From Planctomycetota bacterium (GTDB lineage Bacteria; Planctomycetota; B15-G4): a stretch of DNA of 64,000 nt. Location: positions 62,001-126,000 of the forward strand of contig JAJDEO010000028.1 of NCBI GenBank assembly GCA_029259745.1. Direction: 5' to 3'. The notes beneath the pieces are model-generated. The model was given only the letters and a program-made list of their open reading frames with translations. It was not told the origin of the DNA and did no database searches. Made by a program: the position numbers and the translations under genes. Of the stretch, positions 2,687-52,090 are shown piece after piece (position 1 is the stretch's first letter; each line of letters begins with the position of its first letter).

Positions 2687-4132
2687 ATGCTGCGGCGTGT
2701 GATTGCTGTTGCAGTCTCTGCGGCGCTCGCGTGGGGCGACGAGATCGTCGTCGAGCGCGGCGGGACGATCCAAGCGGCGTTGGATCGCGCGGCCTCGGGC
2801 GACACGGTCAGTGTGCCGGCGGGCACGTATGTCGAGTCGCTCACGATCTCCAAGCACGTCGAGTTGATCGCGCCGGATGGCCCGCTCGTCACGATCCTGA
2901 TGCCGGGCGCACCCAAACAACGCGTCGTGCACATCATGCCGGCGACCTTTCCGACGGTGACCGGGTTTACCATCACGCAGGGGGCGGCCGAGCGTGGTGG
3001 CGGGGTGCTCGTCGAGGGACAGTTGCAGCTGTTCGGCTGCGTCGTGTCAGCCAACGTCGCGGCCGACCGAGGTGGCGGCGTCTACGTCGACGGTCCCGCC
3101 GGCGGCGGGCTCTTGGCGTCAGGAAGTCGCTTCACGAACAACCGAGCCGTGCACGGTGGCGGCTTGGGCGCCGAGATGGCAGAGGGCGCTGTCGTGGAGG
3201 TTGTCGACTGCACGTTCGATGGCAATGCCGTCACGGGGAACGGCGGCGCGATCGAGCTGGTGCAGGGCGACAAGAACGCGTTCAACGTCTTGACGCTGAG
3301 GGACACGCGTCTGATCGGCAATACGGCCGGTGGTGATGGGGGCGGGCTGCACGCGGCGGTCGGTGCGGGCGCGCCGTTCACGTTCGCGGACGTCTCGCTC
3401 GTGAACTCGACGGTCATGCGCAATGTCGCCGGAGGGACGGGCGGGGGCGTCCGTGTGACGACGTCGAGTTTCCCCGCCAGCTCGCTGACGGTGACTCACT
3501 CGGTGTTGGTCGGGAACACGGCGGCGAGCGGAGGAGGCGTGAGTGCCGACGTGCAGTTCGGGATCGTCAACAACAGCATCGTGCGTGACAACGTTCCCGA
3601 CCCAGGCGTCGGCGTGCAGTTTCGCGAGAGCAATGTCGACGGCGGCGCAACCGGCGTTGGCGTGATCGACGCCGACCCGCTGTTCGTCGACCTCCACGGC
3701 GGAGACCTGCACTTGCTGGCCACGTCTCCTTGTCGCGATGGGGGTGTGGGGCTCGTGTTCCCGCTGGACATCGACGGCGACGAACGCCCGTTCGGCGCCG
3801 AGGTCGACATGGGTCTCGACGAGTTCGCTCCGCGCCTCTACGTGACCGCGGATCTTGCAGGTATACCGACGTCCGTCGGGCTCGTGGCTGTGCCGGGGGC
3901 CGGCGAGATGGTCCTCGCCACATCGGCGGCGTTCCTCGAGCAACCGATCCAGCTCGGTCCTGGACTGCTGTTCCTCGCGCCGCCCCTGACGTTGTTCGCC
4001 TTCGGAAGCGTTCCGTCCGAGGGGATCCTGACGTTCGCGATTCCACGCGGGGTGTCGCCCGGGTTCACGGTTGCACTTCAAGGCCTCGCGGGCGACACAT
4101 TGACGAACGGGCTCGTGCTGACGCTGCCGTGA
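2687..4132 (+). CDS. Secreted right-handed beta-helix protein with C-terminal anchor-type domain
   Basis: The 481-aa product starts at an ATG preceded by GAGGAGG and has a short signal peptide (MLRRVIAVAVSAALAWGDE). Residues of about 20-330 form a right-handed beta-helix. It begins with the GGTIQAALDRAASGDTVSVP motif typical of PbH1 or polymorphic outer membrane proteins and goes on with glycine-rich turns (GGGVLVEG, NNRAVHGGGLGAE, GNTAASGGGVS). Then comes DIDGDERPFGAEVDMGLDE, the Asp-rich signature of choice-of-anchor-Q type proteins. The last about 100 aa (ADLAGIPTSVGLVAVPGAG to TNGLVLTLP) look like a divergent copy of the C-terminal module shared by other exported proteins in this window. 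No catalytic residues are recognisable, so it may be an adhesin-like or polysaccharide-binding protein. It converges with the next gene, 35 bases away. Confidence 0.8.
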   Translation: MLRRVIAVAVSAALAWGDEIVVERGGTIQAALDRAASGDTVSVPAGTYVESLTISKHVELIAPDGPLVTILMPGAPKQRVVHIMPATFPTVTGFTITQGAAERGGGVLVEGQLQLFGCVVSANVAADRGGGVYVDGPAGGGLLASGSRFTNNRAVHGGGLGAEMAEGAVVEVVDCTFDGNAVTGNGGAIELVQGDKNAFNVLTLRDTRLIGNTAGGDGGGLHAAVGAGAPFTFADVSLVNSTVMRNVAGGTGGGVRVTTSSFPASSLTVTHSVLVGNTAASGGGVSADVQFGIVNNSIVRDNVPDPGVGVQFRESNVDGGATGVGVIDADPLFVDLHGGDLHLLATSPCRDGGVGLVFPLDIDGDERPFGAEVDMGLDEFAPRLYVTADLAGIPTSVGLVAVPGAGEMVLATSAAFLEQPIQLGPGLLFLAPPLTLFAFGSVPSEGILTFAIPRGVSPGFTVALQGLAGDTLTNGLVLTLP

Positions 4133-4167: not shown

Positions 4168-7100
4168 TCAGGGGCGGTAGTCGATGGCGTAGTCGAGGGT
4201 GAAGCCGTCGGCGGTGTCGACTGAGTTGGGGCCGACCGCGACGATGATCTCGACGCCGGCTGCGAAGTTCGTCGCGGGCATCGAGAAAGTCACGGATCCG
4301 CCGGCCGGGACGATATGCACCTGCTGCACGGTGAGCACGCCGGCATCGATCGTCACGACGCCGACGACACCGCCGTTCGCGGCGCCCCCCGATCCAGGGA
4401 AGGTGAGCGCGCCACCGTCGATCTTGTACTCGCCGGCGAGTTTCGTCGTGTACGACGCGAGAACGTAGCGGTCGGCTGTCCCGGTCTGGCTCGACCCACG
4501 GCCCGGATGTCCGCCTGTGGGAGTGAAGGACGCGAAGGCGCCGGGGTTCGTCGTGGGGAACGCCAGCCCGTCGACTGTGTAGCGGCCAGCAGAGGGGTCC
4601 CAGTGGAGGTCGGCGTAGTTGGCCGGAAAGTTCACTGGTCCCAGGAGGTTCCAGCGGTAGCGCCATCCGTCGGTCGGGCTGCCTGGACGAAAGTCGTCGC
4701 GATAGTTTGCGACTTCACGCCACGCAGCGCCGAGCAGCGTGAACGTGACCGCGTACATCACGCCTGAGTCACCCGTCGCGCGTGCCGTGTGTGTCGCTGA
4801 TCCTGCACCGCCGAAGGGGCCGCCCGTGAAGAACGGGATGATGTGCGGCGGCACTGTGCTCGGGTTGATTGATGCCAGCGAGTTGAAGGACACGTACACA
4901 CCACCTTGTTCGTGGTCGAGGTTTGCGCGCAGACCGAAGCTCGTCGTTCCGAGGCGGGCCGGATCGACGACTGCACCGGGCTTGAGTTCCATCAAGTCGT
5001 CGCCCGTGGTGCCGTTCATGAGCGTGATGCTCGTCACTTGCGCGTTCCCGGCGTAGCTTTCGAGCATGAACTCATCGACGTGCTCGGGTCCGGTCATCGC
5101 GGACGTCGGCTGCGGTGTGGCGTGCGCCGTGTTCGTGACGAGTCCAGCAGGAATCACACCATGGACTTGTGCGGCGGGCTGGGATGGTTGACGGCGCGCG
5201 TCGTTCTTTGCCTTGAGCCCGTGGATCACCGGGAGCGCGCCGAGTCCGAAGCCGTCGACGCCTTGGGTGTGATGACACGTCAGACAGAAGGTATTGAGCG
5301 ACGAGTGCGGGCGTGGTGCGTTGTAGTAGAGCGGGCCCTCTGGAAAGTGCACGCTTGCGCGACGCCACTCGGTGCCTGCGGGAATCGTGCCTCGGTGAAC
5401 AGTGTTGTCGCCCGAACGATCGTGGAATGCGGCGTAGCGCGGGTTGGACGTTTCGCCGGCGTTGCGGAGGCGATCGCTGATCTCGTCGTGGACCCAGTCG
5501 GGGTAGCGATCGGCGTGGTCCGTGCGCCACGTGCCGGAGTACGTGTCGGGCAGCCCGATCAGCGTGGCGGCAGCGTGGTTGCATGCGGTCTCGAGGTCGA
5601 CGGAATGGGCGAAGATCTTGAGTTCATCGGTCCAGCCTGCGAAGCCGGGTTCGGGTTGCGCTGCGACCTTTCCGAGCGTCAACGCGCCGGCCGTCATCTG
5701 AAAGAGTGCTTTGCCGTCCGGGTGCCGCGTCCAACGATGGTAGAGGAGACCGTTCAGGTGCACGTCGACCTGTGAGCCGGCGTCGCTGACTTGGAAGCCG
5801 AGATGGGACCAGCCGAAGCGGGGCAGCAGGTCGGGCAGTCCACCGGTGGTCGGCGGCAGTGTCATCCTGTTGACGATCGTGCCGTTGGCGTCGGCAAAGA
5901 GGACTTGCGAGCGACCGTGCAGGAACACCGCAGTGCCGTCAGGGAATGTGAGCACGCGGCGTCGGACTCCGTCGTCGTCGAAACGGCAGTCGACGAAGAG
6001 TCCGATGTACCAGTCGTGGTCGGAGACGTCGGGATTCCCCTCGGCGGCAACTTGCAGCGGGACGTCGAAGCGCAGGCCGATCGTGCCGTCCATCCAGTAG
6101 CCCTTGCCGCGGACACCGCCGTTGGCAGCTGGCTCGAGTCGGCCCGGACCCTCGACGACGCCGTACGCCGGCGTCTTCCAACGCGTACCCGTGGCCCCGT
6201 TCTGCAGCTTCACAGGATCGGCACCGGGGTCCCATGCGACACCGTTCCAGCTCGTGTGGTGCTTCAACGAGCTGCCGTGGATCGCACTCGCCGAGACGCC
6301 TTGATTCCATGTGAGCGCGCCGGCCATGTTCGCGATCACGAACGCGTCCGGGTCCATGTGGTCGTCGAAGCCGAACTCCTCGGTCTGGCGCCCGTTCGTC
6401 ATCGTCCACACCACGTCTTGGAGGCGGATGAACCGAGCCGCGTCGTTCGCGTTGAGCTTGTTCTCGATCGAGTCGATGATGTTGCCGTTGTCGTTCTCGC
6501 CGGGCGGCATGATGCCGGTCGTGCGACCGTAACCGAGCACGAGCTTGCCATCGTGGACGCCGCTCGGATACGTGCCAGCCTGGTAGAGGTCGACAAGCCG
6601 AGCTTGAGGTGTGGGAGTGGCTGCGCCGTCACCGATCGCGTAGTCCATGTCGTTCAACAGGTTGTCGAGTTGGACGAGCTTGCCGTGGCCCCAAGAACCG
6701 ATGAACGAGACGCCTTGATGCGTGCCACTGTTCTCTCCGACCTCTGCGCCGTACCAGGTGTCGCCCGGCACTTGCTCCTGCGGGTAGCGTGACAGCAGAT
6801 TCCAGGTGGATCCTTGCTTGTATCGGAGCTGGTCGCGCACGGCTTCGAAGAACAGGTTCTTCGCGTCGCGGTCGATCCAAGGGTACGAGCCGCCAAGGTC
6901 TTGGCCCGACGTGATCGGGTTCCCGGCGCCGTCCCGGAACGGATGCTTCGCGAAGCCGAACTTTGTGTTGATGCGCGAGTCGTCAGGCGCGTACGTGATG
7001 GGGTAGATGTCGGTCCAGCGTGACGGGTCGGCCTGAGCGATGCCGGTGGGGTCGTAATACGAGTAGACGATGTCATGCCCCGGCGGCGACGTGATTGACG

Positions 7101-7851
7101 TGTCCGGGTGCGTGAACGTGTAGTCGTCCGAGGCGATACGGAGGACGAGCAGGCCGCCGTCGCCTGCGATCACGGGCTCGAAACCCGACCCGCCGAAGCC
7201 TGTCGTGCCTGCCGAGAACAGCGGCCCGGCAATCGTCGGTCCGGCGCGCACGATCGACTCGATCGATGCCGTGCTCGTCTTGGGGTTCGCGACGGTGATC
7301 TTCACTTTCGTCACGAAGAACTGGAACGTCCGACCGCCCGAGGTGTCGGGTTCATTCGTCGTGACGAAGACATCCACCTCGTAGACGTCCTTGCCGCCCA
7401 CGTCGATGGGCGGATCGGCGTCCCACAGGCATGCGTGACGCGCAGTCTTCACACCATCCGTGAAGTTGGCGTTGATGTAGGCCTGACTCGAGTTCCCGTC
7501 GAGGTACGCGAAGCCTGGATCGGTCATCGTGTATGAACTGCTTTGGTCGGTCGGTGATCCGCCCGGGTTCAAGAGGATCGGTGTCGTCGTCTTCTCGGGT
7601 TTGATGAGCGTGAAGCCTGGCACGCGCATCGTCGAGTTGCCCTCGACGATGACAGCGATGCGCCCATCAGCTGTCGAGCGAAAGCCGGGCACATGGGGGC
7701 GCGTGAAGTACGGGAAGTGCACGGGGTTCACGCCCGCGTCGATCACGCCGGTGACTTCGCGAAACGTCGACGGAACCTCGGGTTCGACTTGTTGTGCGCT
7801 TCCCAAGCACGCGGCCATGAGGACAGCCGCGATCACGGTCAGACTTTTCAT
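4168..7851 (-). CDS. Large exported LamG-domain protein with a single CXXCH haem-binding motif
   Basis: This 1227-aa protein has a signal peptide (MKSLTVIAAVLMAACLGSAQ, with a possible lipobox-like AACLG) and a GGGTGA ribosome site. Residues up to about 500 look like a seven-bladed or similar beta-propeller-type enzyme fold with repeated references to calcium-like DRDAKN and PDDS motifs. Residues of about 560-760 are a LamG/concanavalin-type sandwich (WYIGLFVDCRFDDDG, GWSHLGFQVSDAGSQVDVHL, GWTDELKIFAHSVDLE). Near 5275 the sequence CLTCHH gives one c-type haem-binding motif, which implies export and haem attachment outside the cytoplasm. The last 250 aa are beta-rich with no known catalytic motif. 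Similar LamG plus haem proteins occur in Planctomycetota, but their substrates are unknown. It reads toward the beta-helix gene and is preceded by a hairpin leader (7868-7884) and an R1 repeat. Confidence 0.8.
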   Translation of the reverse strand: MKSLTVIAAVLMAACLGSAQQVEPEVPSTFREVTGVIDAGVNPVHFPYFTRPHVPGFRSTADGRIAVIVEGNSTMRVPGFTLIKPEKTTTPILLNPGGSPTDQSSSYTMTDPGFAYLDGNSSQAYINANFTDGVKTARHACLWDADPPIDVGGKDVYEVDVFVTTNEPDTSGGRTFQFFVTKVKITVANPKTSTASIESIVRAGPTIAGPLFSAGTTGFGGSGFEPVIAGDGGLLVLRIASDDYTFTHPDTSITSPPGHDIVYSYYDPTGIAQADPSRWTDIYPITYAPDDSRINTKFGFAKHPFRDGAGNPITSGQDLGGSYPWIDRDAKNLFFEAVRDQLRYKQGSTWNLLSRYPQEQVPGDTWYGAEVGENSGTHQGVSFIGSWGHGKLVQLDNLLNDMDYAIGDGAATPTPQARLVDLYQAGTYPSGVHDGKLVLGYGRTTGIMPPGENDNGNIIDSIENKLNANDAARFIRLQDVVWTMTNGRQTEEFGFDDHMDPDAFVIANMAGALTWNQGVSASAIHGSSLKHHTSWNGVAWDPGADPVKLQNGATGTRWKTPAYGVVEGPGRLEPAANGGVRGKGYWMDGTIGLRFDVPLQVAAEGNPDVSDHDWYIGLFVDCRFDDDGVRRRVLTFPDGTAVFLHGRSQVLFADANGTIVNRMTLPPTTGGLPDLLPRFGWSHLGFQVSDAGSQVDVHLNGLLYHRWTRHPDGKALFQMTAGALTLGKVAAQPEPGFAGWTDELKIFAHSVDLETACNHAAATLIGLPDTYSGTWRTDHADRYPDWVHDEISDRLRNAGETSNPRYAAFHDRSGDNTVHRGTIPAGTEWRRASVHFPEGPLYYNAPRPHSSLNTFCLTCHHTQGVDGFGLGALPVIHGLKAKNDARRQPSQPAAQVHGVIPAGLVTNTAHATPQPTSAMTGPEHVDEFMLESYAGNAQVTSITLMNGTTGDDLMELKPGAVVDPARLGTTSFGLRANLDHEQGGVYVSFNSLASINPSTVPPHIIPFFTGGPFGGAGSATHTARATGDSGVMYAVTFTLLGAAWREVANYRDDFRPGSPTDGWRYRWNLLGPVNFPANYADLHWDPSAGRYTVDGLAFPTTNPGAFASFTPTGGHPGRGSSQTGTADRYVLASYTTKLAGEYKIDGGALTFPGSGGAANGGVVGVVTIDAGVLTVQQVHIVPAGGSVTFSMPATNFAAGVEIIVAVGPNSVDTADGFTLDYAIDYRP

Positions 7852-10822: not shown

Positions 10823-12430
10823 TCAGGGTGTCGTGCCGCGCACGCCGTGGCTCGCCGTGAATCCCACGGGCCCCGTGGCGTCGGCAATCCACGCCTGGAG
10901 CGAGACGTCGAAGCCCGCGGGCACGCCACTGGGCCACGTGGACGCCAGCAGCAGCTCGCCTGCGCCGTCGGTTGATAGTCCGATGATCAGGACGTCGGGG
11001 CTGGGGACGAGCACGCCGCCTTTGAGCGGAAGCCCGACACTCGTGAGGCCCGCGACGAGCGCCGTCGCTGCGGACGGCGCAGCGTGGCGTACTTCGAGCG
11101 TGATCGGTTGTCCACCCACGAGCGAGCTCTGCGGCTGCAGCACCGGCGTGCCGGCCTGACCCGCGAGCCCTTGGCCCAACCACGTCCATGCAGGTTCGAG
11201 CAGGTCGAAGACGAGCGCAGCGCCGTGGCTCGTGTCGGCGTTGGCATAGGACGCAGCGCCGAGGACGATCAAATCGCCGTCGAGTGCTGCGCTGACACCA
11301 AGCTGGTCTGGGGACTTTGCGGACGGGTCCATCAGACGCTCGAGGGGCTGCCAGGTGCCGCCGCCGTCGAGTCGGAACAGGACACCGGCGCCGCCCGGCC
11401 CGCCGGCAAGCGCGCCGAACGGGGCAGCGACGACGAGTTGATCGTCGTCCAGCGCAACAGCCGAGCCGAATCGATCGCCGGGCTGACCGGCGCCGTCGTT
11501 CAGTTCTTGCTCGAGTGACCAGTCACCGCTGACATCCTCGACAAACGTGAATGCCGAGCCGGCGTTGGTGTTGTCGTCGGGCGCACCGACGAGGATGCGG
11601 TCTCCGTCGATGGCCACGGCGTGACCGAAGTCTCCGCCCGAGGACACGAGGCCTTGCCCCTTGATCGAGTCGACGCGTGTCCACGCGCTGCCGTCGAAAC
11701 GTTGGAGGTGGACCATGCCGAACGGGGAGCTGAACTGGAACGTATGCGGTCCGCCGATCACGGCCGTATCGGCATCGATCGCGATGGCCGCGCCGTAGCG
11801 ACCATTGGCACCCGAGAAGCCCGTGATCGTCAGTGCGGCCTCGAAGGCCCAGCCGCCTGGGCCGAGGCGATAGGCGTAGGTCATGCCCGCGCCGTTGTTG
11901 GGTGGCACGTCGCGTCCCGGTGCACCCACGAGCAGCAGGTCGGGCCCGCAGGCGACGGCGAACCCGAACTCGTCCCAGGGCGCGGCGGACGGTCCGGACA
12001 GCTGCGTCTCGAGCGTCCATCCACCAGCGCCGTGGCGATACAGAAACACCGACCCGCCGTTGTCGTCGCCCGGCGCACCGACGGCGAGCCAGTGGCCATC
12101 CGGCGTGAGCGCCACGGACTTCCCGAACTCGTCGTAGTCCTCACCGTCGATGGGTTCGAGCACCTGCTCCTCGACCCAGGCGACTCCGTCCCAACGGTGC
12201 ACCGAGGCGCGACCGATCGAGAGCTCCGTGCCGATGTCGTACCCGGGCGAGCCGATCACGAGGACGTCGCCGGCCAGGGCCGTGGAGGCACCGCTGCCCT
12301 CGAAGAACTGCACATTGCTGGGCACGATCGCAGCGAGGGGTAGCTCGTCGGCGAGGACATCAGTGGCGCAGACGGCGGTGAGCAGCGCACCCAGCGCAAC
12401 GCTCGGAACACGATTCTGGCGGTCGGTCAT
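10823..12430 (-). CDS. Secreted FG-GAP/integrin-like repeat protein with C-terminal FKGG-type module
   Basis: The start at 12430 is chosen because AGGAGAG lies just upstream and a signal peptide follows (RVPSVALGALLTAVCATDVLADE). The frame is open further upstream but has no start features there. The 535-aa product contains about seven FG-GAP-like units, each of the form FG.SVALDGD.LLVGAPGDD..GGSVFL (for example VFLYRHGAGGW, FGFAVACGPDLLLVGAPGRD). These form a beta-propeller like the integrin alpha head, with Asp-rich calcium loops. The last about 110 aa are the common C-terminal module, with the variant LPLKGGVLVPSPDVLI and the ending VPAGFDVSLQAWIADATG. It is probably a surface or extracellular binding protein. 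It is divergent to the next gene, with a 289-bp gap that carries no clear feature. Confidence 0.85.
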   Translation of the reverse strand: MTDRQNRVPSVALGALLTAVCATDVLADELPLAAIVPSNVQFFEGSGASTALAGDVLVIGSPGYDIGTELSIGRASVHRWDGVAWVEEQVLEPIDGEDYDEFGKSVALTPDGHWLAVGAPGDDNGGSVFLYRHGAGGWTLETQLSGPSAAPWDEFGFAVACGPDLLLVGAPGRDVPPNNGAGMTYAYRLGPGGWAFEAALTITGFSGANGRYGAAIAIDADTAVIGGPHTFQFSSPFGMVHLQRFDGSAWTRVDSIKGQGLVSSGGDFGHAVAIDGDRILVGAPDDNTNAGSAFTFVEDVSGDWSLEQELNDGAGQPGDRFGSAVALDDDQLVVAAPFGALAGGPGGAGVLFRLDGGGTWQPLERLMDPSAKSPDQLGVSAALDGDLIVLGAASYANADTSHGAALVFDLLEPAWTWLGQGLAGQAGTPVLQPQSSLVGGQPITLEVRHAAPSAATALVAGLTSVGLPLKGGVLVPSPDVLIIGLSTDGAGELLLASTWPSGVPAGFDVSLQAWIADATGPVGFTASHGVRGTTP

Positions 12431-12719
12431 CGGACTCTCCTCTGCTGTTCCATTCGCTCTGTCTGACCAAGTCCCCGATGTGGCTTGCCCTGGCGACAGG
12501 TTAACCGAGGTGATCAGTGCTCTGCTGCGACGACGTCGTTCGGCGCCATTCGCACTTCCGAACGAGTCCTTCAGTACGACAAAGCGCAGGAGAGCGCGCC
12601 CGAGCGAAAAGACCATGCGGATTCGGTGGATCTCGTGTGCCGCGCCGCGCCGTGCGCGTTCGGCGCGTGCGGGTATCATGCCCAGGCCGAATCTCCCCGC
12701 CCTCTCCCAGGCTCCGCAC

Positions 12720-14057
12720 ATGCCCCTCTCCCGCATGGTCCGCGGCGCACTCGTGGCTGCTGTCGCGATGTCGCCCGCTCCTTTCAGCCAGACGTTCGTC
12801 GACCGTCTCGTTTCCGACGATCTTCGCGTCGTCTCGTACAACGTTCTCTGGGACACGATCTTCCCCAACGAGGACGCGATCCAGGCGGCGAAGTTCGAGC
12901 GCGTCGTGCTCGCACTCGAGCCCGATGTCTTGGCGCTTCAGGAGATCGGCTTCAGCGTTCCCGTCTCGAACGTCATCAACCTGATGAACGACATCGCGCC
13001 GATCCCCGGCGGCTGGCACGGCCACAAGGCGGGCGACTGCGTCACGCTCAGCCGTTGGCCGCTGACGATGAAGGCCACGGAGACGATTCCCGAGGGCGAC
13101 AAGGACCAAGCCATGGCGCTGGTCGATCTTCCCGACGCGTCGTACCCCTTCGACCTGTACGTGATGAACAATCACTACAAGTGCTGCGGTGGGTTCGATG
13201 ATCGCCGGCAGGACCAGTCCGACTCGATCATCGCGTGGATGCGTGACGCGCGTCAGCCGGGCGGGTTCATCACGCTGCCCGTCGGGACGCCGATGATGGT
13301 GGTGGGGGATCTCAACATCGTGGGTGGTCCGCAGCCGCTGCAGACGCTCGTCGACGGCAACGTCATCGATGAGTCATCCTACGGCGCCGACTCACCGCCC
13401 GACTGGGACGGAACCGACTCGTTCGACGAGCGCCCGCTGCACAACGTCGTCGGGCCGGCCGACTGGACGTGGTCGAGCCCGGGGCCCTTTCCTCCCGGAC
13501 GACTCGACTTCGTGATCGTCACCGAGAGCGTGCTCGCGTCGGTGCATTCGTTTGCCCTCAACACGACGACGATGACGTCGCAGGCCTTGGCCGCGGCGGG
13601 CTTGCAGAGCAACGACGTGACCGTCGACTCACAGGGCGTCGACTTCGATCACCTGCCGCTCGTCGTCGACTATCGCGTTGCGCTCGACCCGTGGTCAGAT
13701 CTCGGTGGTCCGCTTGCGGGCACGGCGGGGGTTCCCGAGCTGAGCGGTGAATGTCCGCTTGCCGCGGGGACTCCGGTGTCGTTGGCACTGGTCGGTGCGC
13801 GCCCGCTCGCGGCGACGACGCTCGTGGTCGGACTGTCCACGCTCGGCGTTCCGTTCAAGGGCGGCACGCTCGTCCCGGCGCTCGATCTGCTCGTCAGCGG
13901 GCTGACCACCGACGCGGCCGGCGCGCTCGAGATCCTGTCGACGTGGCCCGTCGGCGTTCCGTCGGGCACCGATTTCGCGTTCCAGCACTGGATCGTCGAC
14001 CCGACCGGTCCCCAAGGTCTCGCGGCGAGCAACGGCGTGGGCGCAACGGTGCCCTGA
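12720..14057 (+). CDS. Secreted endonuclease/exonuclease/phosphatase-family protein with FKGG-type C-terminal module
   Basis: I place the start at 12720 because MPLSRMVRGALVAAVAMSPA is a signal peptide; ATG 12735 is an alternative. The 445-aa product has the EEP (DNase I-like) fold. Visible catalytic elements are SYNVLWDTI, DVLALQEIGF (metal-binding Glu), MVVGDLNIVGG (GDLN motif), PPGRLDFVIV and GVDFDHLPLVVDY (catalytic Asp-His). Substrates in this superfamily include DNA, phospholipids and phosphoinositides, so the target is open. The terminal about 115 aa are the shared module (GVPFKGGTLVPALDLLVSGL, ending DPTGPQGLAASNGVGATVP), the most typical copy in the window. It is followed 55 bases later by the isomerase gene. 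Confidence 0.85.
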   Translation: MPLSRMVRGALVAAVAMSPAPFSQTFVDRLVSDDLRVVSYNVLWDTIFPNEDAIQAAKFERVVLALEPDVLALQEIGFSVPVSNVINLMNDIAPIPGGWHGHKAGDCVTLSRWPLTMKATETIPEGDKDQAMALVDLPDASYPFDLYVMNNHYKCCGGFDDRRQDQSDSIIAWMRDARQPGGFITLPVGTPMMVVGDLNIVGGPQPLQTLVDGNVIDESSYGADSPPDWDGTDSFDERPLHNVVGPADWTWSSPGPFPPGRLDFVIVTESVLASVHSFALNTTTMTSQALAAAGLQSNDVTVDSQGVDFDHLPLVVDYRVALDPWSDLGGPLAGTAGVPELSGECPLAAGTPVSLALVGARPLAATTLVVGLSTLGVPFKGGTLVPALDLLVSGLTTDAAGALEILSTWPVGVPSGTDFAFQHWIVDPTGPQGLAASNGVGATVP

Positions 14058-20614: not shown

Positions 20615-21313
20615 TCAGACGCCGATCACGAGCTCGACGGCGTTCGAGAAGCGGAAGCTGTCGCCGTTGGCGTCGATCACTTGCATGTAGACGGGCGTGG
20701 GGGCGCCGGCCGAACCAGGCACCGGGAGGCTGATGCGGCCAAAGGTGTCGGCGGAGAGCGGAAGCAGGATCGTCCAAGGCAGCGGGACGAGTGTGCCGCC
20801 CTTGAACGGGGTCGGCGCGTTCGTCACGCCGATGGGCGCGAAGACGACCTGACCCGGCGTCGCGTTGTAGACGTTCAGCGTCGCGCTGCTGCCGGGTGTC
20901 GTCAGTGCATCGCCGCACACCGTGAGCGTCATGCCGCCGGCACTCCCCGCACCGAGGTTCGTCTGGCAGACCGTCGGCTGGTCGACGGTGAAGAGCAGGA
21001 AGGTCGTGATGTCGTCGAAGATGTTGATGCCAGTGCGATAGTCGACGACGTCACCGGCGCCGTTCTCGAGTTCGATGAGGTACGCGCCGATGGGGGGCTG
21101 CAAGACAAACTCACCCGACGCTGTGAGCGCCTGCGACCCAGAGAAGGGGAAGGCGCCTTCGAGGTGCGTCACGACGGCCGTGAGGTTCGTGACAGGTGCG
21201 CCATTCGAGTCGGTGACGAAGCCGTGCAAGATGCCGCTGCCGGCAGCGTTCGCGAAGGCGGGGGTCGAGAGCAGGAGCAGTAGCGTGATGCGTGCGATGA
21301 GGGTGTTCGTCAT
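20615..21313 (-). CDS. Small secreted protein: carboxypeptidase-regulatory-like domain plus FKGG-type module
   Basis: The 232-aa product has a signal peptide (MTNTLIARITLLLLLSTPAFANA). One carboxypeptidase-regulatory-like unit follows (GILHGFVTDSNGAPVTNLTA to GEFVLQPPIGAYLIELENG). The C-terminal module then carries the typical motif NAPTPFKGGTLVPLPWTIL and ends SFRFSNAVELVIGV. This is the shortest member of the module-bearing group in the window. The upstream gap to the divergent gene at 21693 is 379 bp. No enzymatic motif is visible. It is exported, and a role in surface attachment is only an inference from the shared module. Confidence 0.75.
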   Translation of the reverse strand: MTNTLIARITLLLLLSTPAFANAAGSGILHGFVTDSNGAPVTNLTAVVTHLEGAFPFSGSQALTASGEFVLQPPIGAYLIELENGAGDVVDYRTGINIFDDITTFLLFTVDQPTVCQTNLGAGSAGGMTLTVCGDALTTPGSSATLNVYNATPGQVVFAPIGVTNAPTPFKGGTLVPLPWTILLPLSADTFGRISLPVPGSAGAPTPVYMQVIDANGDSFRFSNAVELVIGV

Positions 21314-21692: not shown

Positions 21693-23201
21693 ATGATCAC
21701 CATTCAGTCAATTGCGTGCGCATCGCTCGCGCTCGGCCTCATGCCGACGATGGCACTTGCGGCCAACGACGTTCCGTCCGACGTGCAGATCCAGCTCGTC
21801 GATGCCAACAGCTTCCCGGTCGAAGGCGTCGACATCTTCGTGTCTGACGCCAGCGGGCGGACGATCATCGCCGAGGCCGGCGCCGCGAGCACGCTCTCCG
21901 CGTTCGCGCTGGGGGACACGGTCACCATCTCGCTTCCGACGCTCGGCACGACGTTCGACGTTGCGCTCACGGATGGCCCCGCCACCGCGATCACGCTCGA
22001 AGTCGGCGGCGACAAGCGCGCGGCATCCGTGTCTTCCGTGAAGACGCTGAACTCCTTCGGCTACACCGGCGTCGGTGGCGTCCTCGTGAACGACGACTGC
22101 GCCAACGCGCTTCCGATCAGCGACGGCGACACCTCGTTCACGACGATCGGTGCAACCACGGACGGCACCGTCGGCTCGAACAACAACGACATCTGGTACC
22201 TGTACACGGCGAGCTGCAGCGGTGTTGCAACGTTCAGCACCTGCAACCAGGCCGACTTCGACACCGACCTGATCTTGATGGTCGACGACAACTGTGGCGC
22301 CCAGGTCGCTCTGGCGATCAACGACGACGTCGGCGGCTGTCTCGGCAACACGTCGATCCTCTCCGCGCCTGTCACGGCGGGTACGACCTACCTCCTGAGC
22401 GTCGGCGGCTTCGGTGCCGGTGACGCGGGCTCGGGCACGCTGACCGTCAGCTGCGCGCCCGCGACGGCGAACGATCTGTGCGAGAACGCCGAACCCCTCG
22501 CCGTCAACTCGTCGGTGACGTTCAACAACTCGGCGAACTCGAACAGTGCGTCCGACCCGATCTTCAGCTGCATCTTCTCGGGTGTAGGCTTCGGCTCGAC
22601 GTGGTTCAGCGTCGTGCCCGAGTCGACGTCGATCTTCCTCGACACGAGCGCAAGCACGGGCTCGACGGACACGGTCGTGGCGGTCTACTCCGGCGATTGC
22701 GGCAGCCTCGTCGAAGTCGCCTGTAACGACGACATCGATCTCGGTGCTGGTCTGTTCTTGTCGAACCTCCTCGCCGAGGGGCTGACGCCCGGTGACGAGT
22801 ACCTGATCCGCGTCTCGACGTTCGCTGAAGCGTCTGCCGGTGACATCACGCTCGAGGTCACCGATGCTGGCTCGGGCTTCCAGGTCTGCAATGGCAGTGG
22901 CATCAACACGGCGACGCTCTCGGGCGACACGCTTCCCGCCATCGGCCAGGACTTCACCGTTGTCGCCAGTCCCGCGGGTGCAGGCCTGCTTGCAATCTCG
23001 CTGGCCGGTGATCAGCTCCTCGTCCCGACGGGTGAGTTGCTGGTCGACCGCAACTTCGTCGCACTGCTTCCCTCGGACGACGGCTCCTACACGCTGTCGG
23101 TGCCGGATGACGCGGTCTTCGTCGGTTTCACGGTCTACCTGCAGGCGCTCGCAGGGGACGGCACGCTCACGAACGCGCTCAAGGGCGACGTCGGCGAGTA
23201 G
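21693..23201 (+). CDS. Secreted protein with PPC-like domains and a divergent C-terminal module
   Basis: ATG 21693 begins a signal peptide (ITIQSIACASLALGLMPTMA, then LAANDVP). The frame is open upstream without start features. The 502-aa product has an N-terminal beta-sandwich (VQIQLVDANSFPVEGVDIFV). Two pre-peptidase C-terminal (PPC)-like domains follow: NDIWYLYTASCSGVATFSTC with DTDLILMVDDNCG, and STWFSVVPESTSIFLDTSAS with DTVVAVYSGDCG. Paired cysteines suggest disulphides. The last about 100 aa resemble a divergent version of the shared module, with LLVPTGELLVDRNFVALLP in place of FKGGTLVP. No protease domain accompanies the PPC domains, so it is likely a binding protein. The stop is followed by a hairpin at 23217-23246. 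Confidence 0.8.
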   Translation: MITIQSIACASLALGLMPTMALAANDVPSDVQIQLVDANSFPVEGVDIFVSDASGRTIIAEAGAASTLSAFALGDTVTISLPTLGTTFDVALTDGPATAITLEVGGDKRAASVSSVKTLNSFGYTGVGGVLVNDDCANALPISDGDTSFTTIGATTDGTVGSNNNDIWYLYTASCSGVATFSTCNQADFDTDLILMVDDNCGAQVALAINDDVGGCLGNTSILSAPVTAGTTYLLSVGGFGAGDAGSGTLTVSCAPATANDLCENAEPLAVNSSVTFNNSANSNSASDPIFSCIFSGVGFGSTWFSVVPESTSIFLDTSASTGSTDTVVAVYSGDCGSLVEVACNDDIDLGAGLFLSNLLAEGLTPGDEYLIRVSTFAEASAGDITLEVTDAGSGFQVCNGSGINTATLSGDTLPAIGQDFTVVASPAGAGLLAISLAGDQLLVPTGELLVDRNFVALLPSDDGSYTLSVPDDAVFVGFTVYLQALAGDGTLTNALKGDVGE

Positions 23202-25947: not shown

Positions 25948-26361
25948 ATGAAGACAAAGACACTCGAGATGTTCGCGTCGTTCGTTCTCATCGCGGCGAC
26001 GCTGTTCACCGTGCACGACCCGCGGGATGATGGAGCGCGCGTCGATGTGCCTGACGTTTCCGACACGTACGCCTCGGGAAGCTACGGCGGGGGGTACTTC
26101 GTCAAGAGCGTCAACGGTTCGACCTGGAACATCAAGGTCACCGACAACGGCGACGGCACAGGCACCTACAAGAAGATCGACAGCAACGGCAACACCACCG
26201 ATCAAGGCACGATGACGATCACGACGGGCGCACTCCTCTTCAACTCCGAGTGGAGCGACTGCGAGGGCTTCCTGCTCGAGGACGAAGACGACCCGGGGTA
26301 CTTCACGTGGGTCGCCATTTGCGATGGAGTCCCCGACGGCGGATTGGCGCGCAAGAAGTAG
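25948..26361 (+). CDS. Small secreted protein of unknown function, second gene of the pair
   Basis: ATG 25948 follows a near-perfect ribosome site (AAGGAGAGAG) 11 bases after the previous stop. The 137-aa product begins with a signal peptide (TLEMFASFVLIAATLFTVHD). It is then rich in Asp, Gly and Thr with short beta-hairpins (YVASGSYGG-like YASGSYGGGYFVKSVNGS, KVTDNGDGTGTYKKIDSNGN). The EDEDDPGYFTWVAIC stretch carries one of the two cysteines (the other is in SDCEGF), which could form a disulphide. There is no family I can name. The acidic, Gly-rich composition suggests calcium binding, as an inference only. A strong hairpin lies 73 bases past the stop. Confidence 0.7.
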   Translation: MKTKTLEMFASFVLIAATLFTVHDPRDDGARVDVPDVSDTYASGSYGGGYFVKSVNGSTWNIKVTDNGDGTGTYKKIDSNGNTTDQGTMTITTGALLFNSEWSDCEGFLLEDEDDPGYFTWVAICDGVPDGGLARKK

Positions 26362-26433
26362 GACGGCACAAGGCCTCGGCGAGGGCGTGGCGCGAGGACG
26401 GCGCGTCACGCTCCCGGCCCTGCCCCAGCACGA

Positions 26434-26453
26434 AGCGTGCGCTGTCGCACGCT
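26434..26453 (+). terminator. Terminator hairpin after the small secreted operon
   Basis: A perfect 8-bp stem AGCGTGCG-CTGT-CGCACGCT lies 73 bases downstream of the second gene and 168 bases before the giant surface protein gene. This suggests the two are separate transcription units. There is no T-run. Confidence 0.5.
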
Positions 26454-26620
26454 CAGTTCGAGGCAGCGATGGCGAGGTTCGCACCGCGCGTTCGTCGGAT
26501 TCGATGCGGAAAGTTGGCGGTGTCTTCGGGTGGTCTGCGCTCTCCACGATGCGAGGGCTCTCCACCCGAGGGCTCCCGCTGACGTCTCCCTGCGCACCAT
26601 CGAATAGGACACCGAGCGGC

Positions 26621-36783: not shown

Positions 36784-37860
36784 ATGAGACCCAACCGAAT
36801 CGTCGCGCTTGGAGCGGCTCTCGCCTGCACGGCGCTGCTGTCCGCGGTGCCGACGCATGCGCACGACGGGTCGCCGAGCGCAGAGGATGCGACGGCGCCG
36901 ACGCCGACGACGCTCTGGCGCGGGCCTGGGACGACGACGCCCTCGAGTTGGTCGGGGACGGCCGAGGCGGGGCTCGTAAACGGTGACTTTGCAGACGGCC
37001 TCGACGCATGGAGCGCGGCGGAGTCGGGCGGCGGAAGCGCGCCGGGTGCCGTGTTGGGCGTGGATGGGGAGGCGCGATTGTTCGAAGGCGACTCGTTCCT
37101 CGTCAGCCTCGCGCAGTCGTTCGTTCTACCCGCGGGTACGACGTCGCTTTCGTTCGATGTTCTCCAGGTGCCGGGCTTCGATCTCACGGACAACTTCCTT
37201 CCCGACGCTTTCGAGGCGACGCTGCTCACCGAAGGCGGTTTTCCGGCTGTCGACCCTTGGGCGCCATTCGCGACATCGTTCTTCAACCTCCAAGAAGACG
37301 GTTCGACGAACCTCGGAAGCGGGACGACGTTCGACGGCACGCGCGTGTCGGTGCTGGTCGACGCCGTGCCAGCTGGCGAGACGCTGACGCTCGTCTTCGA
37401 CATGATCGGTGCCGACGGTGACACGGCGGGCGGCCTCGCCGTCGACACGGTGACACTCGACTTCGAGTGTGATGTCCCCGCGTCGTGGAGTCACTACGGC
37501 AGCGCGTTCCCGGGCGCGAATGGTGCGCCTGTGCTCACGCCGTTGTCGACTCGCGCGATCGGCGCGACGTACGACATCGACATCACGAACCCCACCGGTG
37601 CGCTCACGTCCGCCATCGGATTCATCGGCTTGACGCCCGCCGCGACGCCGACGCCGCTCGGTGGCGTGCTTTTGCTCGACCCCGTGACGATTGTCGCGTT
37701 CGACCTTCCGCCCGCTGGCAAGGTCGTGCCGCACACGAATGATCCGGACATCGCCCTCTGTGGTCTGGCGGTATACGCGCAGGTGATCATCGCTGATGCG
37801 ACGGCGCCGGGCGGTTACACGTTCAGCGAGGGGCTGGAGATCATCATCGGCAGCCCGTGA
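36784..37860 (+). CDS. Exported beta-sandwich protein with C-terminal module
   Basis: ATG 36784, 47 bases after the giant gene, begins a signal peptide (RIVALGAALACTALLSAVPT, then HAHDG). The 358-aa product has a central carbohydrate-binding-like beta-sandwich (LVNGDFADGLDAWSAAESGG, LAQSFVLPAGTTSLSFDVLQ). This pattern is that of choice-of-anchor or discoidin-like domains that bind sugars or surfaces. The last about 115 aa are a divergent member of the shared C-terminal module: GVPVLT-like NGAPVLTPLSTRAIGATYDI, PTPLGGVLLLDPVTI instead of FKGGTLVP, and the ending GYTFSEGLEIIIGSP. It may be co-transcribed with the giant gene. It converges with the kinase gene, with 16 bases between them. Confidence 0.7.
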   Translation: MRPNRIVALGAALACTALLSAVPTHAHDGSPSAEDATAPTPTTLWRGPGTTTPSSWSGTAEAGLVNGDFADGLDAWSAAESGGGSAPGAVLGVDGEARLFEGDSFLVSLAQSFVLPAGTTSLSFDVLQVPGFDLTDNFLPDAFEATLLTEGGFPAVDPWAPFATSFFNLQEDGSTNLGSGTTFDGTRVSVLVDAVPAGETLTLVFDMIGADGDTAGGLAVDTVTLDFECDVPASWSHYGSAFPGANGAPVLTPLSTRAIGATYDIDITNPTGALTSAIGFIGLTPAATPTPLGGVLLLDPVTIVAFDLPPAGKVVPHTNDPDIALCGLAVYAQVIIADATAPGGYTFSEGLEIIIGSP

Positions 37861-48379: not shown

Positions 48380-48512
48380 CGTCGTCGCTCCCCGTTCGAT
48401 GGTTGAGATCCGCTTGAGAGTGTATGCGACGTGGGCTGGCCTCGCCCGCACGATCGAAGCTCGTGAACGCCGGTGCAGGCGGGCATCAACGCGGGCCTCG
48501 GTGCACGGAGCG

Positions 48513-48577: not shown

Positions 48578-50254
48578 TCAAGGAACGATCAGTTCGAACG
48601 CGACGCCGTTCGTCGACGACCAGAGGTTGCTGCCGTCCTTGAACCAAGCCTGCGTGACGAGCTCGATACCGTCGGGAAGACCCGAGACCGGCCCGCCCAG
48701 GCTCTGCGTCGCTCCGCCCGGCGCGAGGTTGATCGCGATGTCGGGCGAGGGCACGAGCGTGCCACCCTTGAACGGCGCGTTGATCTGCGACGCCGAGATG
48801 TAGAGCACGCCGGGAGCACCGGGCGTCAGGTTCGTGAGCGTGAGGTCGAGCGTGTTCGCTCCCGTCGTGAACGACACGTCGAGGTTGGGCACCCCGTTCG
48901 CGCCGGCCTTCGCCGCGCCGAGATCTTCCGTGAACACGCCCGCGAACAGCGGCATGCAGCTGTTCACGATCGCACTGCGTACGGTGTTGACGACTTCAGG
49001 ATGGAAGAACGTCGTGACGTTCTCCAGGCCGCCGTCGCAGAGGTGGCAGTAGCTCATGATCGTGCCGACGGGCGTGCACTGTTCCGACGTCTGACACTGA
49101 CCGAAGTAGCCATCGGGCGCGCACTGGTCGATCGGCGGGCAGTAGTCGTGCGTGTGAGGCGTCGCGAAGTTGTGACCGAACTCGTGCGCCGTGACCATGA
49201 AGTCCCAGTTGAACGCGTTGTTCGGGATGATCGGGATCGGCGTCAGCGCGGCGAGGTTGCCACTGACCGAGAAGCCGTAGTCTTGGTCGCAGAGCACATC
49301 GAGATACGCGACGCCACCACCGAGGCCCGCACCGCTCCAGAGCGTGTAGAGGTCGGCGGTCACGGGCGCGGCGCCGTTGTCCCAGGCATCCTGGAACTCG
49401 TAGAGGACATCGATGCTGCTGCCGCCGAGGTCCTGGTTCACCCACGGGTCGTTGTTGGACGTGTAGAAGCCGACGTAGGGCATCGAGAAGATGGCGCCGA
49501 CCTGCTCGCGGTAGCGGTCGCTCACCGCGCCGAAGAGGCTGAAGGCATAGACCTGCGTCGCCGGCAGGTCGTTGAACAGCTGGTAGAACTGGTAGTCGGT
49601 CTCGAGCGCGATGCGCGCGTCGTAGTAGGGGAGCGTACCGCCGGAGTACGAGGCTTCAGGCGAGCTGCCCTGCGGCATGGGAAGCGACGGCTGCGTCGCG
49701 TGGCGCACAGAGTCGGAGTGACACGCGAGCTCGGGGCCGACGCCGAGCTCGGTGAGCATCGACTGGCGCACGAACGAGTTCGTCGACTTGGCCCAACCCG
49801 CAACGGCGTCGGGCTGGACAGCGAGGTGGATCGTTTCGTTGCCGCGCGAGATCCAGCCGCGCGAGCCGAAGCTCGAGAACGAGAGGAAGACGTCGCTCCC
49901 GCGCTCACCGCGCACCGAGCCCTTCCAGAGCGACAGGTTCAGGTGCGACGTGTCGGAGCCGACGTGTTCGCCGTCGACGTAGATGGCTGTGCCGTCGGGC
50001 GCCACGGCGATGCGTTCGAGGTCGAGCGTCGCGGGTGCCATGTCTGGCAGCGCGACGTCGATGAACGTGACGCGGTCGAGGGGCGCGAGGCTGCGGATCA
50101 GCGACGGGATGGGTTCGAGGGTGATGGCGTCGGTCGATTCCGAGTCGATGGCGCGCAGCGGAAAGGGCTGGACGTGATCGTCCTTGGCGTCGAGCGGAGC
50201 GTTCAGTGCTGCGACGAGTGCAAAGCCGATGAGGGCGGGGCGAGAGGAGAGCAA
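48578..50254 (-). CDS. Secreted M12B/reprolysin-like metalloprotease with FKGG-type C-terminal module
   Basis: A TTG at 50254 preceded by GGAG seven bases upstream is the most likely start. It gives a signal peptide (LSSRPALIGFALVAALNAPL). The 558-aa product has a propeptide-like region to about residue 200, then a metalloprotease domain with FMVTAHEFGHNFATPHTHDY (HEXXHXXXXXH) and a Met-turn-like GTIMSYC, both typical of the metzincin group M12B. Cysteines (DYCPPIDQCAPDGYFGQC, QTSEQC) are numerous near the active site. The last about 110 aa are the shared module (INAPFKGGTLVPSPDIAINL, ending SSTNGVAFELIVP). It is probably an extracellular protease. An 18-bp hairpin follows the gene. Confidence 0.85.
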   Translation of the reverse strand: MLSSRPALIGFALVAALNAPLDAKDDHVQPFPLRAIDSESTDAITLEPIPSLIRSLAPLDRVTFIDVALPDMAPATLDLERIAVAPDGTAIYVDGEHVGSDTSHLNLSLWKGSVRGERGSDVFLSFSSFGSRGWISRGNETIHLAVQPDAVAGWAKSTNSFVRQSMLTELGVGPELACHSDSVRHATQPSLPMPQGSSPEASYSGGTLPYYDARIALETDYQFYQLFNDLPATQVYAFSLFGAVSDRYREQVGAIFSMPYVGFYTSNNDPWVNQDLGGSSIDVLYEFQDAWDNGAAPVTADLYTLWSGAGLGGGVAYLDVLCDQDYGFSVSGNLAALTPIPIIPNNAFNWDFMVTAHEFGHNFATPHTHDYCPPIDQCAPDGYFGQCQTSEQCTPVGTIMSYCHLCDGGLENVTTFFHPEVVNTVRSAIVNSCMPLFAGVFTEDLGAAKAGANGVPNLDVSFTTGANTLDLTLTNLTPGAPGVLYISASQINAPFKGGTLVPSPDIAINLAPGGATQSLGGPVSGLPDGIELVTQAWFKDGSNLWSSTNGVAFELIVP

Positions 50255-50743: not shown

Positions 50744-52090
50744 TCACTGGAAGACGAGCTGCACTCCGTTTGTCGCCGACAAGCCGAACGAAGAACCCGG
50801 GTCTTGGACCCACGCCTGAGTGAAGAGTTCGAGCCCGGTCAGACCCGGCGGCGTGAGGAACGGCAGGCTCGCTCCGCCGAGCGGGTCGAGCGGCAACGGG
50901 ATCAGGAAGTCAGGCGTCGGGACGAGGATGCCGCCCTTGAAAGGCGCCGAGAGGTCGTCGAGTCCGACGACGAACGTCGTGGGCGCACCGGGGAGGCCGT
51001 TGATGATGTCGAACTGACTCGGCTGTCCGGGTAGCAGCGTGCCGAAGCCGAGCAGGTCCGGGACAGCCGTGTTGCTCGCCTGCTTGCCGCTTCCCGGGAC
51101 GCGCGTCCAGGGGAAGTCGAGCGGCGGGAGGCCGAGGCACAGCACGTCGTCTTCGGCGTCGAGTTCACCTTCGAGTGCACCGAGCACATCGGTGCCGAGC
51201 ACGACGAGGTCGAACGGCGAGGTGTTCACGAGCACGGCTTGGTTCTCGATGAAGACGGGCCCGTTGTCCGTGATGATCTCGAGCTGATCGATCATGAGCA
51301 TGTCGAAGAGCCCGAACGCACCCAGGCTCGTGAATCCGTTCTTGAGCAGGATGCCGTAGTCGTCGAGATCTTGGATGACGTCGATCTGCCCGACGAGCGG
51401 GATCGGCGGGAGTGCGCCGAGCACGGCTTGCGGGAGGATCGTGTGCGGGAAACCCGACGGGATCGCCGGGATGTCGACAACCTGACCGCCGTGGTGCAGC
51501 AGGACGTGATCGTAGGCGTCGTAGTCACGACCCGTGGCACCGCTCGTCGTCGGCACCAACGTCTTGGTCTTCTTGTCACCCTGAGGTGGCGCCGCTTTGG
51601 GCCACTTCAGCGTGTCGTCCTCGAACTCCCACACGGCCTTGACGGCCTTGAGCCAGGCCTTGCCGAGTAGGTTCGACCCCGCCTTCGTCTTGTCGCAGAT
51701 GACCGTGATCGCGATCGTTGCGCAGCACTCATTACCCTTCGAGTCCTTGACGGCGATCTTCAACGGCTTGGTGACGGCGTACTCGATCGACGAGCCGTCC
51801 GCGACCGTGAACGACTTCTTCTTGGGCTTCGTCGGATCGCCGGGGTCGGGCTCGAAGTAGGTCATCACGGGGTCGCCGGCGGCATCGAGCAGGCCGCAGT
51901 CCTTGGCGTTCGCTCGTGACAGTTCGCTGGCGGCTTCGCCGGTTGCGCCCGAGTCGAGCGTCATCGACTTCGTGCACGTTCCCGTTCCGACGGTGAACGT
52001 CGCGTCGACTTTCTTCGTCTGAGCGGCGGCGCCCGAGGCCACGACTGCAAGGATCAGCAGGCCGGCTGTCAGGGTGTTTCGGATCTTCAT
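50744..52090 (-). CDS. Exported protein with C-terminal FKGG-type module, otherwise unknown
   Basis: The 448-aa protein begins with a signal peptide (RNTLTAGLLILAVVASGAAA). The N-terminal region (KKVDATFTVGTGTCTKSMTL to CCATIAITVICDKTKAG) is beta-rich with paired cysteines. The middle portion (FGLFDMLMIDQLEIITDNG, QIDVIQDLDDYGILLKNGFT) does not match a family I know. The last about 100 aa are the shared module (LSAPFKGGILVPTPDFLIPL, ending SFGLSATNGVQLVFQ), one of the closest copies to the EEP protein and the metalloprotease. The function is unknown; export and the module imply a surface or extracellular location. Confidence 0.75.
   Translation of the reverse strand: MKIRNTLTAGLLILAVVASGAAAQTKKVDATFTVGTGTCTKSMTLDSGATGEAASELSRANAKDCGLLDAAGDPVMTYFEPDPGDPTKPKKKSFTVADGSSIEYAVTKPLKIAVKDSKGNECCATIAITVICDKTKAGSNLLGKAWLKAVKAVWEFEDDTLKWPKAAPPQGDKKTKTLVPTTSGATGRDYDAYDHVLLHHGGQVVDIPAIPSGFPHTILPQAVLGALPPIPLVGQIDVIQDLDDYGILLKNGFTSLGAFGLFDMLMIDQLEIITDNGPVFIENQAVLVNTSPFDLVVLGTDVLGALEGELDAEDDVLCLGLPPLDFPWTRVPGSGKQASNTAVPDLLGFGTLLPGQPSQFDIINGLPGAPTTFVVGLDDLSAPFKGGILVPTPDFLIPLPLDPLGGASLPFLTPPGLTGLELFTQAWVQDPGSSFGLSATNGVQLVFQ

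Follow-up and report, generated by a model that had tools for sequence, protein, structure and literature searches.

A recurrent, nearly always C-terminal module of exported proteins in an order of Planctomycetota and its candidate role in attachment

Why should exported proteins with unrelated bodies end in the same sequence? The question is raised by the window studied here, the whole stretch of 64,000 nucleotides that was analysed (G000:C21:62001-126000), from a 5.88 Mb Planctomycetota genome in 70 contigs, referred to below as the host. An earlier note on this DNA had read several protein ends in it as a common C-terminal module without a transmembrane segment, carried by exported proteins of unrelated kinds, and had suggested a shared sorting, anchoring or assembly step. 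In this work, that reading was partly supported. How planctomycetes position proteins beyond the cell is, to our knowledge, still poorly understood.

The module in the window, its sequence and predicted fold

The motif P[FL]KGG[TVI]LVP was found in all five window proteins for which it had been proposed. It reads PFKGGTLVP in the EEP-family protein, the M12B protease at 48578 and the protein at 20615, PFKGGILVP in the protein at 50744, and LPLKGGVLVP in the FG-GAP protein. Its measured distance from the stop is 64-68 residues in each case, within the range of 60-75 residues from the C-terminus given before. The conserved unit is the whole of the last ~111 residues (~113 in the alignment A1 of six window ends) and not the motif alone. 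Alignment A1 reads AGxxGxPxLxG ... PFKGGTLVPxPD ... PxGxPxG ... QAWIxD ... ASNGV, and the consensus of 67 modules ends in ASNGLxxTTP. Among three further ends that had been listed as divergent versions, that of the 36784 protein clearly belongs (67 bits), whereas that of the 21693 protein is marginal (11-15 bits) and that of the 2687 protein weaker (about 12 bits). The bodies in front of the module are unrelated by Pfam (FG-GAP, M12B, EEP and others), as had been claimed. The FG-GAP and EEP genes are divergently transcribed, and their starts, near 12430 (-) and 12720 (+), lie inside long open reading frames and were judged from signal peptides and codon usage (Table 1).

Table 1. Copies of the module in the window, the genes that carry them, and the three host-sample modules that are not C-terminal (window positions, except where a contig is named)
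Feature	Position	Strand	Remarks
FG-GAP protein, C-terminal module	10832..11164	-	126.6 bits; match ends 2 residues before C-terminus
FG-GAP protein CDS	10823-12430	-	start inferred at signal peptide MTDRQNRVPSVALG...; FG-GAP_2 body E=1.2e-43
EEP-family protein, C-terminal module	13716..14048	+	129.3 bits; match ends 2 residues before C-terminus
EEP-family protein CDS	12720-14057	+	start inferred at MPLSRMVRGALVAAVAM...; Exo_endo_phos body E=5.2e-13
232-aa protein 20615-21313, C-terminal module	20630..20950	-	78.4 bits; 4 residues from C-terminus; body weakly CarboxypepD_reg (Pfam)
36784-37860 protein, divergent C-terminal module	37510..37842	+	67.1 bits; 5 residues from C-terminus
M12B (reprolysin-like) protease 48578 to about 50281, C-terminal module	48599..48907	-	73.7 bits; 6 residues from C-terminus; body Reprolysin_5 E=4.9e-14
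448-aa protein 50744-52090, C-terminal module	50756..51073	-	108.7 bits; 3 residues from C-terminus; body without any Pfam match
Possible divergent relative, end of protein starting 21693	22911..23168	+	11-15 bits, E 0.024-0.0012 by search; marginal
Possible divergent relative, end of beta-helix protein 2687-4132	3815..4129	+	about 12 bits (11.6), E about 0.02 (0.017); not established
Exception: signal peptide - module - metallo-beta-lactamase-type body	G000:C12:234893-236188		host
Exception: module ahead of IPT domain			host sample
Exception: module ahead of FG-GAP-like sequence			host sample; weak match (E=2e-4)

The window also encodes large proteins without the module. A giant open reading frame of 3470 aa (26324-36736, +), with an inferred signal peptide, contains pre-peptidase-like repeats in its N-terminal part and Rhs/YD-type sequence near its end. 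Two other large proteins, which have a signal sequence or signal anchor and are exported or surface-located, are encoded at 4168-7851 (-), with a possible lectin-like region, and at 45500-48451 (-), with repeated carboxypeptidase-regulatory-like domains.

Across the 67 aligned modules, Gln94 is invariant (67/67), Gly54 is present in 66, Asp99 in 65 and Gly73 in 64/66, and the [ST]109-Asn110 pair is nearly invariant (all in structure numbering). The wider core is P[FL]xGGxLVP ... Q-x-W-x-x-D ... [ST]-N-[GA]; the Lys of PFKGG is kept only near the host lineage, and outside the order the motif takes the form P[FL]xGGxLVP. The module has no basic C-terminus, and only 1/67 modules exceeds a mean hydropathy of 1.9 over 19 residues, in agreement with the earlier remark that there is no transmembrane segment. 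Two AlphaFold runs with different first sequences agreed on a beta-sandwich with seven to eight strands (pTM 0.73; mean pLDDT 80.1 and 81.7) from shallow alignments of 9-10 sequences, and the predicted fold of about 111 residues is an Ig-like beta-sandwich. In Foldseek the resemblance is to Ig-like structures and holds for the fold alone (TM about 0.45-0.6, best E about 1e-3); FN3, CBM56, CARDB and adhesin domains are weakly similar. PFKGGTLVP, the stretch that is conserved best, lies within the sole segment with pLDDT <50. A conserved stretch outside the confident core has the look of a recognition site, which we only infer because the AlphaFold alignments are shallow; the low-confidence loop may reflect a shallow alignment and not a binding loop. 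No family in Pfam, NCBIfam or the PDB sequences covers the module, and the literature search found no description of it. The domain is therefore uncatalogued, in that it matches no curated Pfam or NCBIfam model.

Copy number, position and export of the carriers

An exact DNA pattern for PFKGG matched the host genome 82 times, against 0 matches for the reversed control pattern, and it had 0 matches in viral contigs. The profile search of the host genome that the earlier note had proposed, made with profile A1 from the six window ends, gave at least 150 copies at E<=0.001, a lower bound because the scoring covered only 150 of the 233 candidates. Of these 150 matches, at least 144 lie outside the training set, and shuffled tails gave 0 matches below E=0.01. 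Chance or low complexity is ruled out by the empty reversed-pattern and shuffled-tail controls. Relative to roughly 4,000 genes, a total estimated from the gene density of the sample described below, the copies amount to about 4% or more of genes. The host sample comprised ~1.2 Mb of contigs with 824 genes from a codon-usage caller, 77 of which contain the module, one copy each; the corresponding 9% is an upper estimate, because the sampled contigs were picked for having matches. In the host's order, all 14 sampled genomes are positive, 12 of them with at least 34 copies, where counts stopped at 80 per genome, and the other two with 16 and 4. Across the phylum-wide sample, the module occurs in 75 of 392 Planctomycetota genomes, which belong to a limited set of families.

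The excess at C-termini is pronounced, and its absence was one of two patterns that the earlier note had counted against its own reading. For 74 of the 77 host-sample modules the match ends no more than 15 residues before the stop, the commonest gap being 2, and 16/77 carriers end exactly in TTP. Tandem copies were found within none of the 77 proteins. In the three exceptions, the module comes straight after the signal peptide (Table 1). Among 40 stretches from other genomes, 52 of 54 modules are C-terminal; one of the remaining two, at L124:3256-4594 in G160, which is of a different family, again has the layout signal peptide - module - metallo-beta-lactamase (body 51% identity), and the other is a weak 16-bit match. 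This layout, seen in two families, is the clearest N-terminal placement on a mature protein. The module thus occupies one terminus of the mature protein; the C-terminus is nearly always the one used but is not obligatory.

The other such pattern was occurrence in cytoplasmic proteins, and neither of the two was observed. Signal-peptide-like starts were called in 69 of 77 carriers (about 90%) against 250 of 747 other genes (33%; Fisher p=2e-22), by a home-made heuristic (positive start, uncharged hydrophobic core, small cleavage-site residues) and not by SignalP. Several of the 8 signal-negative carriers are start-call errors with a signal peptide visible nearby. Furthermore, lipobox-like signals are avoided, being found in 2/69 carriers against 55/250 others among the signal-peptide-positive genes (p=6e-5), and internal hydrophobic segments are rarer in carriers (3/77) than in other genes (136/747). 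Pfam searches on 63 carriers identified FG-GAP propellers in at least 20 and a beta-helix in two, and single carriers with M12B, M10, C25, trypsin, EEP, metallophosphatase, glucose/sorbosone dehydrogenase and metallo-beta-lactamase domains. The host's only two detected C25 (gingipain-type) peptidases, G000:C5:78351-79328 and G000:C13:44244-45236, both carry the module.

Tails on homologous enzymes

The EEP enzyme of the window was searched across 392 genomes. Its homologues carry the module only in the host's order. Elsewhere they have dockerin-like repeats at 13 loci, a PEP-CTERM tail at L108 and dockerin plus PEP-CTERM at L011; the homologue L012 is a lipoprotein (lipobox) without a tail, and one other has a different beta-domain. 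Among GSDH homologues, those of the host's order at L163, L164, L177 and L210-L212 have the module, those of families f18, f5 and f87 have dockerin-like repeats, and elsewhere the added domain is cytochrome-c-like or there is none. That homologues differ in their tails in this way supports a common role of the module in attachment, sorting or assembly. The role proposed in the earlier note is backed to this extent, and a dedicated sorting peptidase or T9SS- or PEP-CTERM-type machinery is not. On the genome level, at least 10 PEP-CTERM or dockerin copies occur in 0/15 genomes with at least 10 modules vs 11/43 others (58 genomes), a borderline result (p=0.05) in which genomes were treated as independent of relatedness.

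The EEP modules are about 46-51% identical, compared with 70-74% for the EEP bodies. In the module tree, EEP modules from three genomes do not group; support exceeds 0.9 at only 20/116 nodes, and therefore tail exchange between paralogues is not concluded. In a published model of freshwater Planctomycetes, M12B proteases are attached through dockerin and cohesin in a 'planctosome', and dockerin function in Planctomycetota is described as largely hypothetical (PMC6461901). The M12B protease of the window ends in the module where the planctosome model has dockerin. Dockerin-like repeats end EEP or GSDH enzymes at L112-L117, L119-L122 and L174-L192. In family f18 they are followed by a Cys-containing end (..CP). 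Such ends are possibly another lineage-specific attachment tail.

Proposed function and alternative readings

The probable role of the module is to hold secreted proteins at the cell surface or on a scaffold that they share. We hypothesize that it is a folded attachment domain, recognised by a common partner and dockerin-like in its action, and we give this reading a probability only just above one half (about 0.5). Carriers, each with one Ig-like beta-sandwich appended at one end of the mature protein and nearly always at the C-terminus, would leave the cytoplasm via the Sec pathway, as their predicted signal peptides suggest. Recognition by the common partner, beyond the inner membrane, would involve the PFxGGxLVP loop together with the Q..W..D / [ST]N[GA] edge. 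The module would then keep its carrier at the cell surface or within an assembly outside the cell, serving attachment and not transit. Its mode of action would resemble that of a dockerin or of some other domain that attaches non-covalently, and it may take the place of dockerin repeats, PEP-CTERM tails and lipid anchors in this lineage. An attachment domain fits best because of the replacement, the single terminal copy, the avoidance of lipid anchors and the tolerance of an N-terminal position. The modules that directly follow a signal peptide speak for a folded attachment domain rather than a tag cleaved at the C-terminus, and the rare N-terminal layout is expected if such a domain needs a free end and not the C-terminus. 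On the other hand, Ig-like sandwiches are generic, which counts against the attachment reading. More tentatively, and with odds somewhat below even, the exported products of about 4% or more of genes would be docked by their Ig-like terminal domain to a single dedicated envelope receptor or translocon, in an undescribed system of this branch of Planctomycetota that replaces exosortase and dockerin/cohesin. The searches for exosortase, C25, SprA and secretin identified no receptor or machinery for the module.

The C-terminal domains (CTDs) of T9SS are seven-stranded IgSF sandwiches, with the motifs PxGxYVV and KxxxK (PMC5445135), and the type A CTD resembles the module in being a folded Ig-like C-terminal domain, many per genome, on Sec-exported proteins with unrelated bodies. 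The module might therefore be a secretion signal for an outer-membrane translocon, to which it would bring the folded protein from the periplasm, perhaps being cleaved or swapped for an anchor, and its one copy per protein, its nearly always C-terminal position with a fixed end (TTP in 16/77), its signal peptides and its bodies, with two C25 peptidases and many propellers among them, would all agree with such a signal. We nevertheless consider it unlikely, since PxGxYVV and KxxxK occur in 0/77 carriers and the module differs from the type A CTD in having other conserved residues, in that it may directly follow the signal peptide and in being planctomycete. No T9SS component was detected; SprA (PF14349) had no match in the 58 genomes and none in any control genome either, so this search lacks a positive control. 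The C25 family (PF01364, PorU-type sortases) is absent from G001, G002, G003, G007, G011 and G013, with the module-rich G001, G002, G003 and G011 among them; a C25 sortase was rejected because it is not co-distributed with the module and the host's two C25 proteins are carriers themselves. Secretins are present in 58/58 genomes and thus offer a general outer-membrane exit, one that does not set module-bearing genomes apart. Moreover, the N-terminal placement in the metallo-beta-lactamase protein is conserved from family to family and cannot be reconciled with a signal that is strictly C-terminal. A divergent PEP-CTERM/exosortase-type sorting tail would have the same distribution logic, with many copies per genome, signal peptides and unrelated bodies (PMC1569441), and PEP-CTERM takes the same place on the EEP homologues L108 and L011. 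Such an identity is hardly credible and is refuted by the end features and the lack of exosortase: the module is a folded domain of ~111 residues and not a motif with a transmembrane helix and a basic cluster, a PEP motif occurs in the last 35 residues of 0/77 carriers, PEP-CTERM (PF07589) has 0 matches in the host and is rare in the order, and exosortase (PF09721) has 0 matches in the host and in 9/14 genomes of the order. Exosortase was found in 20/58 relatives, and across the 58 genomes it shows no association with the module (p=0.75). The co-occurrence with a sorting peptidase that the earlier note had looked to was thus borne out neither for exosortase nor for C25.

The module could also be a beta-sandwich of an ordinary kind, structural or ligand-binding, such as a carbohydrate-binding or stabilising domain, that domain shuffling has spread and that has neither a common receptor nor a part in sorting. 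Its predicted fold, a beta-sandwich by Foldseek like generic Ig-like, FN3, CARDB, CBM56 and adhesin domains, would suit this explanation, as would the N-terminal position now and then, the fast divergence of the EEP modules compared with their bodies, and the divergent relatives in other families. We regard it as doubtful, because the module is always a single terminal copy and never tandem, unlike stalk or CBM arrays. It is also found on about 4% or more of all genes, with bodies that have no obvious common substrate, and lipid anchors are nearly excluded while the tail is swapped for dockerin and PEP-CTERM on two enzymes. No sequence or structural match to Ig-like, FN3, CARDB or CBM56 domains falls below E=0.001. 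The planctomycete dockerin repeats (PF00404) are similar to the module as a terminal attachment unit on secreted enzymes and stand in the same place on EEP and GSDH homologues, but the sequence and fold of the module are unrelated to them, being a beta-sandwich without paired Ca-binding repeats; dockerin had 0 matches in 67 modules, and PF00404 had 0 in the host genome. The LPXTG motif is absent from the module consensus, which has neither a transmembrane helix nor a basic tail.

Much of what the order exports bears this one uncatalogued domain, so that a single profile picks out a candidate surface or extracellular proteome for dozens of genomes. The module is a concrete handle for fishing out a receptor or secretion route, and the homologous enzymes with swappable tails provide a ready comparative test of its role.

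Weaker relatives with a Q-W-D and SNA core end dehydrogenases, mainly in family f32 (18-31 bits). At L165-L173, L175, L178 and L190, GSDH enzymes, mainly of f32, have divergent end domains, most of them with Cys (RCVGG ... YWxRDP ... SNA ... FC). These end domains look distantly related to the module and could constitute a second family.
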